Assembly: GCF_014195655.1 (NCBI RefSeq)
Contig: NZ_JACICD010000005.1
Coordinates: 1-64,000, forward strand
Origin: Ancylobacter tetraedralis
GTDB lineage: Bacteria; Pseudomonadota; Alphaproteobacteria; Rhizobiales; Xanthobacteraceae
Length of the DNA: 64,000 nucleotides
Direction: 5' to 3'
Position 1 is the first letter of the stretch, and each line of letters starts with the position of its first letter. Under the pieces are notes generated by a model that saw nothing but the letters and a program-made list of their open reading frames with translations, was not told the origin of the DNA and did no database searches. Shown one piece after another: positions 56,541 through 60,369 of this stretch. The position numbers were made by a program, and so were the translations under genes.

Positions 56541-57028
56541 CCCTTGCACCCTGATTCCCCGGGGCCCCTCCCCCGTCGACCGGCAGTGCCGGTTCAACAG
56601 GAAAGCGCCCTGACTTCAATGAACTGAGCGGAGACGAGCCGTCCGGATCGCTTTCATCCGGCGCGGGTCACGCCCAGGCGACGGGAGCCGGCGAACCGGT
56701 GCACGTCGACACATTCCCAACCGGTACTCCCGCGGCTGTTAGCACATCGTGAATCCGGGCCGGATCGGGGCGGCAAATCCCGCATTCGGCCTCCACGCCC
56801 GTGCATCTGTGGCTTCGTCCCCACACACCTCGCGCTGGCGCACGCTCATCGCGTGGGGCATGCGGCCCGCGTTCACATGTTTGCAAAGGCACGTCCGCCG
56901 GCGAGTTGAGCGTTTCCGCCGGGAAAAGCTCATGTTAGACAGGCCGATCAGTTCAATGCCTCGGGTCGCGGTGTCGCATCGCCGGCACGCCCGGGATGCA
57001 CGGCAGGCGGGCGGGTCGAAGGGGCATG
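56541..57028. other. Intergenic region between cpdR and the amidohydrolase gene
   Basis: About 490 bases separating divergent genes. ACCGGCAGTGCCGGT at 56580-56594 is a short palindrome. No TTAA-N7-TTAA (CtrA) site is evident. No gene seen. Confidence 0.4.
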
Positions 57029-57913
57029 ATGGCCGTCATAGCGGACACGATCGACCCGGCATTCGAGGTCGTGCAGCCGAGCCAGCCGACGGCCCTGCCC
57101 TTTCTGTTCAATTCTCCCCATAGCGGGGTGGTCTATCCGCGCAGCTTCGTGGAACAGGCCCGGCTCAAGCTGCCCATGCTGCGCCGCTCGGAGGACACGC
57201 TGGTCGACGCGCTGTTCCGGGACGTGACCGGATTCGGCATGACTTTCATGCGCGCGCATTTTCCGCGCTGCTATCTCGACGTGAATCGCGAGCCTTATGA
57301 GTTGGACCCCCGCATGTTCGAGGGCCGTCTGCCGGCCTATGCCAATACGCGCTCGATGCGGGTTTCAGGTGGGCTCGGCACCATTGCCCGGATTGTCGGC
57401 GAGGCGCAGGAAATCTACGGCCGGCGCATCCCGGTGGACGAGGCGATCCATCGCATCGAGACCCTGTACAAGCCCTATCACCGCACGCTGCGCCAGCTCA
57501 TGGCGCAGATGCAGCGCCAGTTCGGCGTGGCCGTGCTGGTGGATTGCCATTCCATGCCCTCCAGCTTCCAGCAAGAGCGCTCGCGCATCGATTTCGTGAT
57601 CGGCGATCGCTACGGCACCAGTTGCGCCACCATCATCACCGATGTGATGGAGACCGAGCTGCGTCGGCGCGGCTATTCCGTGGTGCGCAACAAGCCCTAT
57701 GCCGGCGGCTTCATCACCGAGCATTACGGCAATCCCACCTCGGGCATGCATGCCATCCAGATCGAGATCAATCGCTCGCTTTATATGCATGAGCCTAGCT
57801 ATCAGGCGTCTGCTGCCTTCGATGATGTTCGTCGCGACCTGCTCGACATGGCGGTATCGCTGACGAAAATCGCCCAGATCGAGCTCGCCGGCATCCGCAC
57901 CGCAGCGGAATGA
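57029..57913 (+). CDS. N-formylglutamate amidohydrolase-family protein
   Basis: A 294-residue metal-dependent amidohydrolase. The start at 57029 is preferred over 57026 because AAGGGG is four bases upstream. 'FNSPHSGVVYP', 'VDALFRDV', 'DVNREPYELDP' and 'LVDCHSMPS' are the family's metal-binding and substrate motifs. The enzyme in histidine degradation hydrolyses N-formylglutamate; the specific substrate is not proven, and no hut genes are adjacent. Confidence 0.9.
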   Translation: MAVIADTIDPAFEVVQPSQPTALPFLFNSPHSGVVYPRSFVEQARLKLPMLRRSEDTLVDALFRDVTGFGMTFMRAHFPRCYLDVNREPYELDPRMFEGRLPAYANTRSMRVSGGLGTIARIVGEAQEIYGRRIPVDEAIHRIETLYKPYHRTLRQLMAQMQRQFGVAVLVDCHSMPSSFQQERSRIDFVIGDRYGTSCATIITDVMETELRRRGYSVVRNKPYAGGFITEHYGNPTSGMHAIQIEINRSLYMHEPSYQASAAFDDVRRDLLDMAVSLTKIAQIELAGIRTAAE

Positions 57914-58192
57914 CCAATCATCTCAAGACGATAGCTCGATCCTGACGAAAATTTTATCGGGTGATGCAAAAGGCCGCATAAGAGCCTTGCATTTTGGACA
58001 TGAGACCTATACCAATTCTGCACGCTCGGTTCCGGAGCGCCATCCCCCTCCCTTGTCGAGGCCGACGCCGCGAAGTGCGGAGGGGATAGGTTGACCCGGA
58101 AAGCCGGATGCCCTCTTGGGTCTCGGGACGCCAAGCGAGGACTGCCCTAAAGAACGGCTCTAGCCGTCTCGGGTAACGTCTCGCCCCGATAC
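57914..58192. other. Region downstream of the amidohydrolase gene
   Basis: About 280 bases without gene. A possible weak terminator (AAGGC..GCCTT followed by GCATTTT) is near 57966-57992, and a short palindrome ACGGCTCTAGCCGT lies at 58154-58167. Confidence 0.35.
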
Positions 58193-58292
58193 AAAAGAAA
58201 GAGGCCGCTCACGCAAGGCGGGAGCGGCCCAAGTCTAGGGAGGAAACGCCCAAGGAGGGCTGTACGGAGCGACGCCAATCGCTGCGTACGAG
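58193..58292 (-). ncRNA. Alpha-r8/suhB (MmgR)-like small RNA, copy A
   Basis: Read on the minus strand: -35 CTTGAT (58326-58321), 16-base spacer, -10 TACATC (58304-58299). The 5' hairpin has arms from GTACGCAGCGA and TCGCTCCGTAC around the loop TTGGCG. Next comes the core TTTCCTCCCT (58246-58237), then the terminator stem GGCCGCTC/GAGCGGCC (arms at 58222-58229 and 58203-58210) and TCTTTCTTTT. The order hairpin, single-stranded UUUCCUCCCU, Rho-independent terminator is that described for alpha-r8/suhB RNAs of Hyphomicrobiales, which act on mRNA ribosome sites via the CU-rich core. About 100 nt. Confidence 0.8.
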
Positions 58293-58756
58293 AAGCAAGA
58301 TGTAGGTGCATTGCGGAATAATCAAGGCGAACAGCCGATTTTCTGGCATACCAGATACACCTTCCACCCCGTTGTGGCATTAATGTCGCGAAAGGGGTAA
58401 CAGAGAACCGCTCACCGCACCCGATTGACGCCCGACGCATGCCGGCAAGGCATGGCTCACGCGCCTCACTGGCTTGAGCCCTGCCCTCCTGAGCGCGCGT
58501 CGGGTTTGTTTTTGCCGGAATCCCCCCCGCGCATCGCCCGCCCCTCCCTCGCTGGATGACCCTATCTCGCCGGAGGGCGGCCGCGGACGCGTGCGACATT
58601 CGCCGCCAGCCCGTCGGAATAGGCGCGCGCAGCGGCGGCGCTCGCGAAGGCACGCGGCCATGCCGTCGGGCCGGCAAGCGGTGACTGACGCAGCCACGGC
58701 GGGAACTGAGGGGAATGGATGGCCCGGATCGGAGCGTCCGGGGGCGCCGCCTGCGC
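58293..58756. other. Spacer between sRNA copies A and B
   Basis: About 460 bases holding the promoter of copy A at its left end. The remainder is GC-rich with no supported gene; open frames on both strands lack homology I recognise. Confidence 0.4.
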
Positions 58757-58824
58757 GTTGGGCAGGCCAGAAAAGAAAGAGGCCGCTCACGTTGGGCAGG
58801 CCAGAAAAGAAAGAGGCCGCTCAC
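58757..58824. repeat. 34-bp exact tandem duplication in the sRNA-B terminator
   Basis: The unit starting GTTGGGCAGGCCAGAAAAG and ending GGCCGCTCAC occurs twice, at 58757-58790 and 58791-58824. It repeats the 3' half of the terminator stem and its T tract (minus strand), giving copy B a second T tract. Confidence 0.9.
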
Positions 58825-58904
58825 GTTGCCGGAGCGGCCCAAGTCTAGGGAGGAAACGCCCAAGGAGGGCGGCAGAACGGCAACGCCAATCACCGTACTG
58901 CACT
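58804..58904 (-). ncRNA. Alpha-r8/suhB (MmgR)-like small RNA, copy B
   Basis: Minus-strand reading: -35 TTGTCT (58940-58935), 17-base spacer, -10 TATATA (58917-58912). The 5' hairpin arms ACGGTGA and TTGCCGT enclose TTGGCG, extended by GCAG/CTGC. Core TTTCCTCCCT at 58856-58847. Terminator stem arms at 58832-58839 and 58815-58822, then TCTTTCTTTT. Identical in core and terminator to copy C, with a different 5' stem. Confidence 0.8.
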
Positions 58905-59147
58905 GCAGCAATATATACCCCTGCGCCGCACAACAGACAAGAGCCAAAGCGAAAGAAACGAAACCAAAAAGCCGGGATCAACGTGCGAATGTCGAAATTC
59001 GCGCCCTCGACGCGCCTCGACGCTTGATCCATATCAGATCGCGATGACGGACGGATCACGGTCCGGACCGCGCCGGCGGCGCACAGGTCCTCATGCCGGC
59101 AGGCTCACGCAGCCGGTGGATCAAAGCGTTGATTTTCAGAGGGTTAT

Positions 59148-59247
59148 AAAAAGAAAGGGGCCGCTCACGTTGCCGGAGCGGCCCAAGTCTAGGGAGGAAA
59201 CGCCCAAGGAGGGCGGCGGAAGGGCAACGCCAATCACCCTGCCGCGC
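59148..59247 (-). ncRNA. Alpha-r8/suhB (MmgR)-like small RNA, copy C
   Basis: Minus-strand reading: -35 TTGCAC (59283-59278) and -10 CATATT/TATTAT around 59253-59260. The 5' hairpin arms AGGGTGA and TTGCCCT enclose TTGGCG. Core TTTCCTCCCT at 59200-59191. Terminator arms 59176-59183 and 59159-59166, followed by CCTTTCTTTTT. It is divergent from the HisN/SuhB-family gene; the Rfam name suhB comes from the motif's position near such genes. Confidence 0.8.
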
Positions 59248-59583
59248 TGGAAATAATATGGCAGCTTCACTTCCCGAGTGCAACAGCGGGCAGTGCCCAA
59301 TCCTTGATCCTGCCAGAATAGCAGCCATGCGCTGAACGCAGGCCGCCGCAGCCCGTCCCGGTGCGCAGAGGCGTGCCGGGCGCAGGGCTGGCCCTGCATG
59401 GCGCCCCGCGTGCCGGTCGCCGCGAATGCCTCGTTCGGAGGCCCGCCCGCTTTTGCGGCGATGGCGTCGCGCGGCCGGTCCCGCTGCCGCCAGCGTGTCA
59501 TTGCCGAGCGGCGCGCCGGTCGATATGCGTGTGCTGCGGACGGCTTTGGCCGGCGCGCGCAGACCAGCATGGAGTGGGCGGCT
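59248..59583. other. Upstream region shared by sRNA C and the phosphatase gene
   Basis: About 335 bases. The left 40 bases are the promoter of sRNA C on the minus strand. The rest is GC-rich leader of the phosphatase gene; an in-frame open extension to 59398 exists but looks non-homologous. Confidence 0.45.
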
Positions 59584-60369
59584 ATGGGTGCGGTGGATTT
59601 CGAGAACTTCGTGCACGAACTGGCCAGCGTGTCGGGCCAGGCCATCCTCCCCTTCTTCCGCACCGCGCTCGGCGTGGAAGACAAGAGCCGGGGCGCGGTG
59701 TTCGATCCCGTCACCGCCGCCGACCGCGCCGCCGAACAGGCCATGCGCACGCTGATCCGCCGTACCTTTCCCAGCCACGGCGTGCGCGGCGAGGAATTCG
59801 CCGACGAGAGCCCCGACGCCGATTACGTCTGGGTGCTGGATCCGATCGACGGCACCAAGTCCTTCATCGCCGGCATGCCGGCCTGGGGCACGCTGATCGG
59901 CCTCACGCATGAGGATCACCCGGTTTATGGCATGATGCATCAACCCTTCATCGGAGAGCGCTTCTACGGCGATGGCGCGCAGGCCCGCTATCGCGGCCCG
60001 GCCGGCGACCGGCGTCTCGGCGTGCGGGCCTGCCCGGCGCTGGAGGAGGCCGTGCTCATGACCACCAGCCCGCTTCTGATGGGCGAGGCGGACCGCGCCC
60101 TTTATGTCGAGGTCGAGAAGCGCGCGCGCCTGCCGCGCTATGGCGGCGACTGCTATGCCTATTGCATGGTCGCCGCCGGCCATGTCGATCTCGTCATCGA
60201 GACCAATCTCAACGAATACGACATCCTGCCGCTGATCCCGATCGTCGAAGGCGCGGGCGGCCTCGTCACCAATTGGGAAGGCACCGGCGATCTCTCGGGC
60301 GGCCGGGTCATCGCCGCCGGCGACCGGCGCGTGTTGGAGGCCGCGCTGAAGGTGCTGCAGGGAGGCTGA
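59584..60369 (+). CDS. hisN: Inositol-monophosphatase-family phosphatase, histidinol-phosphatase-like
   Basis: A 261-residue metal-dependent phosphatase. The start at 59584 has GGAG nine bases upstream; ATG 59569 is an alternative. Motifs EEFADE (about 70), WVLDPIDGTKSF (about 86) and 'YGGDCYAYCMVAAGHVDLVI' are the lithium-sensitive phosphatase signature; 'GTKSFIAGMPAWGTLI' is typical of the HisN branch that dephosphorylates histidinol phosphate. SuhB/inositol or fructose-bisphosphate activity remains possible. Confidence 0.87.
   Translation: MGAVDFENFVHELASVSGQAILPFFRTALGVEDKSRGAVFDPVTAADRAAEQAMRTLIRRTFPSHGVRGEEFADESPDADYVWVLDPIDGTKSFIAGMPAWGTLIGLTHEDHPVYGMMHQPFIGERFYGDGAQARYRGPAGDRRLGVRACPALEEAVLMTTSPLLMGEADRALYVEVEKRARLPRYGGDCYAYCMVAAGHVDLVIETNLNEYDILPLIPIVEGAGGLVTNWEGTGDLSGGRVIAAGDRRVLEAALKVLQGG

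Follow-up and report, generated by a model that had tools for sequence, protein, structure and literature searches.

The window analysed here, a stretch of 64,000 nucleotides of Ancylobacter tetraedralis DNA (contig NZ_JACICD010000005.1, positions 1 to 64,000), carries three tandem units, almost certainly members of the suhB/MmgR (alpha-r8) family of small RNAs (sRNAs), beside a gene for N-formylglutamate amidohydrolase (FGase). A search of the whole window with the RF00519 covariance model, which spans 77 positions and has a curated cut-off of 41 bits, gave three minus-strand matches with E-values from 3.4e-11 to 9.4e-10. They are called copies A, B and C below and are listed with the flanking genes.

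59143..59221, minus strand: alpha-r8 copy A, farthest from the FGase gene (RF00519, 65.3 bits)
58800..58877, minus strand: alpha-r8 copy B (RF00519, 64.2 bits)
58187..58267, minus strand: alpha-r8 copy C, adjoining the FGase gene (RF00519, 59.6 bits)
56996..57913, plus strand: FGase gene (PF05013, E 2.8e-72)
59398..60369, plus strand: gene of the inositol-monophosphatase family on the opposite flank, start codon uncertain (PF00459, E 3.6e-49)

A 43-nt unit containing GCCCTCCTTGGGCG and TTTCCTCCCT occurs three times in the window with 98-100% identity. The same three matches were recovered when the search was confined to 57900-59600, and no fourth place in the genome (5.03 Mb, 29 contigs) scored above the cut-off. 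These results bear out the first-pass annotation of this DNA, which had proposed three minus-strand suhB/alpha-r8 units from the letters of the sequence. One candidate for a fourth copy, at G000:C4:457820-457901, was rejected, having a sub-threshold score of 33 bits and TGTTCCCCTCTGG where the core should stand. The same place (1501-1582 of locus L004, minus strand) holds a separate sRNA-like element with GGCTGTTCCCCTCTGGAAGG and a terminator. This element is found in at least 24 of 30 genomes of the genus, with sub-threshold Rfam matches only, and possibly represents an undescribed sRNA family.

The three genes would give minus-strand RNAs of about 95-105 nt, made up of a 5' hairpin with AUUGGCGU in its loop, a short GCCC/GGGC hairpin, an unpaired UUUCCUCCCU and a terminator. 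The predicted folds of all three RNAs follow this order, all of them folding better than shuffles (z-scores -4.4, -3.4 and -3.3). The core, 5'-UUUCCUCCCU-3' in every copy, lies 3' of a weak hairpin and is unpaired in these folds. The 5' hairpins lie outside the Rfam model; the terminators were placed by model alignment and fold.

59191..59200, minus strand: core TTTCCTCCCT, copy A
58847..58856, minus strand: core TTTCCTCCCT, copy B
58237..58246, minus strand: core TTTCCTCCCT, copy C
59216..59245, minus strand: 5' hairpin of copy A, loop AUUGGCGU
58872..58898, minus strand: 5' hairpin of copy B
58262..58289, minus strand: 5' hairpin of copy C
59157..59184, minus strand: terminator stem-loop of copy A, with a T-rich tail 3' of it
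58814..58840, minus strand: terminator stem-loop of copy B
58202..58230, minus strand: terminator stem-loop of copy C

The shared terminator with a T-rich tail described in the first-pass annotation is present in the RF00519 alignment and in the folds, but a simple terminator scan with its own loop limits listed none of the three. A perfect 34-bp tandem duplication occupies 58756-58823 of the window, and its end forms part of the copy B terminator; the nearest relative (L144) lacks the duplication.

Comparison of the 90 copies of 30 Ancylobacter genomes showed that the loop of the 5' hairpin, ATTGGCGT, which contains AUUGGCGU, is invariant in all of them. The stem below it varies and keeps its pairing: the 47 distinct arm pairs are 87% paired over base pairs 1-10, whereas 1000 re-dealings of the arms averaged 70% and never exceeded 74.5%. 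Within A and within B, none of 1000 re-dealings reached the observed pairing. Outside Ancylobacter the loop core TTGGCG was found in 17 of 119 copies, the other 102 being without it.

The tandem triplet itself was found in 30/30 genomes of the genus, the syntenic region containing exactly three occurrences of the core pattern when up to four substitutions were permitted. Of the 90 copies, 89 share an identical 21-nt core, and the copies are spaced at 324-383 bases (A to B) and 342-2354 bases (B to C). Each of the 30 genomes has 3 to 8 RF00519 matches when weak matches are counted, and a few carry additional dispersed alpha-r8 copies. In four genus loci (L198-L201) more divergent, dispersed alpha-r8-like copies have a common, different upstream sequence ending in ..GGCGGTGACGTGC. 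At the level of the family, 147 of the 149 genomes sampled have an RF00519 match above the cut-off.

The linkage of alpha-r8 to FGase genes, usual and not universal, is seen here in the PF05013 neighbour, whose best named protein matches are from A. moscoviensis, A. koreensis and others at 78-83% identity. Among 80 named FGase loci, two of which were too short to judge, 59 had one alpha-r8 copy within 3 kb downstream, eight had two, nine had three and two had none, and every copy faced the FGase gene. Seven of the nine three-copy loci belong to the Ancylobacter group, including one record labelled Bosea sp. 117; the other two are from Xanthobacter tagetidis and an uncultured Rhizobiales bacterium. 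The region 58390-58760, lying between B and C, is mostly without a blastn match in the relatives tested, and for this reason, together with the variable B-C distance, it may be an insertion site. On the other side of copy C, the non-coding region 58013-58186 (plus strand), which lies between that copy and the FGase gene, aligns in 28/28 relatives tested; its 20-nt motif AATTCTGCACGCTCGGTTCC, with up to three changes, occurs in 30/30 genus genomes and is absent from those copy-bearing loci outside the genus that were scanned.

The upstream regions of the three copies are unlike one another, and in the genus alignment each is conserved copy by copy. The mean promoter distance was 0.287 for the same copy across genomes and 0.502 between the copies of one genome. 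From this alignment the following promoters are proposed.

59255..59283, minus strand: putative promoter A, TTGCAC, 17 nt, CATATT
58912..58940, minus strand: putative promoter B, TTGTCT, 17 nt, TATATA
58297..58325, minus strand: putative promoter C, TTGATT, 17 nt, CATCTT, the best conserved of the three

The 80 nt upstream of each copy were then compared with the published consensus for the storage regulator PhaR (AniA), YGCRNYGCR. The promoter of mmgR in Sinorhizobium meliloti holds this motif, and Table 3 of the report marks the site as efficiently bound by PhaR in an electrophoretic mobility shift assay (EMSA; PMC12542648). An exact match was present upstream of 26/30 A copies, 30/30 B copies and 28/30 C copies (84 of 90 in the genus). 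Shuffled upstream regions had one in a mean of 3.0-3.8 copies of 30, control palindromes were found in 0-8, and a random 87-nt window from the same loci contained a site in 16% of cases. Outside the genus the motif was found at 36/38 and 76/81 copies, the set of 38 not being random because it was taken from the 30 best-scoring loci of the family. In the present window the sites are as follows.

58922..58930, minus strand: PhaR-like site B, upstream position, TGCGGCGCA, exact YGCRNYGCR
58899..58907, minus strand: PhaR-like site B, downstream position, TGCAGTGCA, 23 bp from the upstream site
58307..58315, minus strand: PhaR-like site C, in the -35/-10 spacer, CGCAATGCA, exact YGCRNYGCR
59243..59251, minus strand: degenerate PhaR-like site A, TCCAGCGCG, one mismatch, exact in 26/30 genus copies

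The genome has one PhaR gene, on the same contig and outside the window, and three phasin-family matches; two of the phasin upstream regions carry YGCRNYGCR. Control by PhaR of at least two of the three copies thus appears probable, as judged from the motif and its distribution.

The position of the sites was specific for each copy. Copy A has the downstream site in 26/30 genomes and the upstream site in none, copy C has the upstream site in 28/30 and the downstream site in none, and copy B has the upstream site in 12, the downstream site in 25 and both in seven of 30. At the operator position that they are missing, A and C score at background level. Paired sites at a spacing of 19-22 bp, in almost every case 20 or 21, were found in 73 of the 99 distinct copies from outside Ancylobacter that lack the TTGGCG loop, in 3/15 outside copies that have it, and in 0/30, 5/30 and 0/30 of the Ancylobacter A, B and C copies; random windows of the same loci had such pairs in 0.3-1.5%. 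The distribution suggests that an ancestral paired operator may have been divided among the duplicates. Whether this division amounts to real subfunctionalisation we would put slightly below an even chance. The proposal that the related RNAs differ in expression receives indirect support from the copy-specific promoters of 30 genomes and from PhaR-like operators that differ by copy.

For the RNA product, targets were sought through the complement of the core. The exact complement AGGGAGGAAA has five sites in the genome, of which three are the alpha-r8 copies themselves; the fourth is the ribosome site (AGGGAGGAAAGACATG) of a nitrate/sulfonate-type solute-binding protein, NMT1-like in Pfam, and the fifth lies at a place without a credible gene. 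A looser pattern, GGGAGGAA before ATG, gave 27 matches and, after removal of one duplicate, four short and one contig-end case, 21 open reading frames (ORFs). Eight of these were uptake components, one of them (L225) falling below Pfam's own cut-off, compared with 2/19 ORFs behind AAGGAGA (p 0.069 in this genome alone). Across the genus, AGGGAGGAAA before ATG gave 75 matches in 28/30 genomes. Excluding the solute-binding-protein site of the present genome, 70 of the 71 distinct sites were translated, and dropping four ORFs shorter than 55 amino acids left 66. Counted over the 25 commonest of the 71 matched families, at least 20 of these 66 are uptake components, namely at least 18 solute-binding proteins, one TctB and one ABC ATPase. 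The pooled control ribosome sites gave 2/30 (Fisher p 0.0097). As controls, the first-listed 30 of 74 AAGGAGA sites were taken, with 11 ORFs shorter than 55 amino acids dropped, and 14 AGAGAGGAGA sites, with three short ORFs dropped and 9/11 scanned, L316 and L320 being excluded as they begin like L309. Another control, AAAGGAGA, had six sites only and was not used. In four genomes (loci L288, L303, L323 and L352) a Rieske/molybdopterin oxidoreductase gene, which we take to be arsenite-oxidase-like, has AGGGAGGAAA ahead of its start.

The genome has an Hfq gene. The core very probably pairs at ribosome sites, and a regulon shared by the three copies is plausible because their core is identical. 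Uptake-protein mRNAs are accordingly suggested by the counts as alpha-r8 targets in Ancylobacter. Such targets fit the findings in Caulobacter: there the mRNAs of TonB-dependent receptors are repressed by SisA, which uses the same core (PMC12559287). A sponge RNA like CrfA was looked for as well, and the exact 10-mer core complement was found at no RNA-like locus; the search was narrow, looser complements not being sought genome-wide. The region 58013-58186 (plus strand) was considered as a sponge and rejected, since its GA-rich part pairs with the core no better than shuffles do: the mean duplex energy was -12.9 kcal/mol against -12.6 shuffled, with 19/30 sequences beating their own shuffle mean, and the region folds weakly (z -1.6).

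Taken together, the most likely mechanism is that sRNAs assisted by Hfq block nutrient-uptake mRNAs at their ribosome sites, the control by carbon storage being divided among the copies. The core would pair with (A)GGGAGGAA(A) ribosome-binding sites, most likely with the help of Hfq, and translation, preferentially of nutrient-uptake genes, would be blocked. PhaR would repress the promoters and leave the DNA once polyhydroxybutyrate (PHB) accumulates. Two PhaR operators, separated by two helical turns, were probably present when the gene was still single. Once it had been duplicated, the downstream operator would have been kept in A and the upstream one in C, with B retaining one of them or the pair. 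Since the operators are retained in this copy-specific manner, the three copies would respond differently while supplying the same active RNA. As a whole, this combination of tandem alpha-r8 genes, pairing at ribosome sites and PhaR operators divided among the copies is the explanation we favour, with some reserve.

Several observations weigh against it. Four of the 30 A copies and two of the 30 C copies have no exact YGCRNYGCR site, and the copy A site of this genome deviates by one mismatch. Of the six control palindromes, one was likewise enriched (8/30 in B, 15/38 and 34/81 outside the genus), probably because the same site was read in another register. Constraint on the RNA could explain part of the motif at the A/B position, as the site there shares nucleotides with the base of the 5' stem, which is transcribed. 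For the copy C stem, 179 of 1000 re-dealings reached the observed pairing; its covariation is uninformative because this stem hardly varies. The view of the first-pass annotation that each unit has its own promoter is favoured by the copy-specific conservation in the genus but not by a strict scan of the E. coli type, which found no promoter at the three units. On the side of the targets, the uptake contrast in this genome alone has the p value given above, the controls of the genus test are small and unequal, and the 66 ORFs include homologues, which do not count as independent cases. Phasin mRNAs, also considered as possible direct targets, have ribosome sites that are not exact core complements.

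The arrangement could be explained instead by dosage alone, the redundant copies yielding more of one RNA and their promoter differences being drift. The near-identity of the core throughout the genus agrees with this, as does the likeness of the terminators within a genome, which were closer to one another (0.175) than in permuted genomes (0.218, 0/300), as gene conversion would produce. Drift is however difficult to reconcile with promoters that are closer across genomes than between copies, with a promoter C that is nearly invariant, spacer included, and with an operator position sharply specific to each copy, and we consider dosage alone unlikely. Concerted evolution as a strong claim was itself rejected, since terminators of the same copy class are alike across genomes too (0.160); the likeness within genomes is slight for stems (9/300) and for promoters (0/300, small effect), and concerted evolution of the copies is best called partial. 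It is also conceivable, with a still lower probability, that the upstream palindrome serves another regulator such as NtrC, as both activation of mmgR by NtrC and its repression by AniA have been reported (PMC7143759). The motif is nevertheless the published PhaR one, supported by the EMSA on mmgR in PMC12542648, and it also occurs ahead of two phasin genes in this genome.

A further alternative, which we regard as improbable, places the main working site in the loop AUUGGCGU rather than in the CU-rich core, for instance as a protein site or a second seed. The loop is indeed invariant in 90/90 copies on a changing stem and its TTGGCG recurs beyond the genus, yet the 102 outside copies without it have kept the core, and the seed tested in Caulobacter was the core (PMC12559287). 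That the units are no working genes at all but inactive repeats left behind by recombination is very hard to believe: the 34-bp duplication ending within the copy B terminator would suit such an origin, but in 30/30 genomes all three copies are kept with their core, hairpins and promoter regions intact.

Multicopy alpha-r8 RNAs, some of them adjacent, have been in print since 2005 (PMC1273637), which makes a tandem multicopy arrangement less surprising. What distinguishes the present case from the suhB element of Corbino et al. (2005) is a tandem triplet of fixed order across a genus and a 5' hairpin with an invariant loop. The connection of MmgR with PHB and its control by AniA and NtrC have also been published (PMC7143759, PMC12542648). 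The three units resemble MmgR of S. meliloti in the RF00519 match and in the PhaR/AniA-type promoter motif; S. meliloti has a single copy, whereas here there are three in tandem with a two-site promoter split among them. Several siblings with one core and differing promoters are described for Caulobacter crescentus SisA-D (PMC12559287), and SisA likewise lies downstream of an FGase gene and represses nutrient-receptor mRNAs at the ribosome site. SisB-D lie elsewhere in the genome and have upstream regions without a common motif. Unlike these, the three Ancylobacter copies stand side by side, most of them with a PhaR-like motif. The sponge CrfA accompanies SisA-D in C. crescentus, and the narrow search here found no counterpart. 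In our searches of open-licence papers, the main phylogenetic survey of mmgR aside, we found neither paired PhaR sites in alpha-r8 promoters nor their division among copies, and no report on Ancylobacter sRNAs.

These results connect the published control of mmgR by PhaR with alpha-r8 genes in many other Rhizobiales. A broader and more tentative proposal, somewhat less likely than not in our judgement, is that the paired PhaR operators of Rhizobiales alpha-r8 genes serve carbon-storage sensing, and that the triplication in Ancylobacter split the pair while gene conversion keeps the RNA alike. Why bacteria retain several sRNAs that are nearly identical is an unanswered question. In Ancylobacter, experiments should be able to distinguish between redundancy, dosage and divided labour, since 30 genomes have the same three copies in a fixed order, with one active sequence and a definite promoter difference. 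If the proposed division of operators is true, the triplet would be a clear natural example of a small RNA that has undergone regulatory subfunctionalisation, in which the storage signal would set how much of the uptake machinery gets translated.
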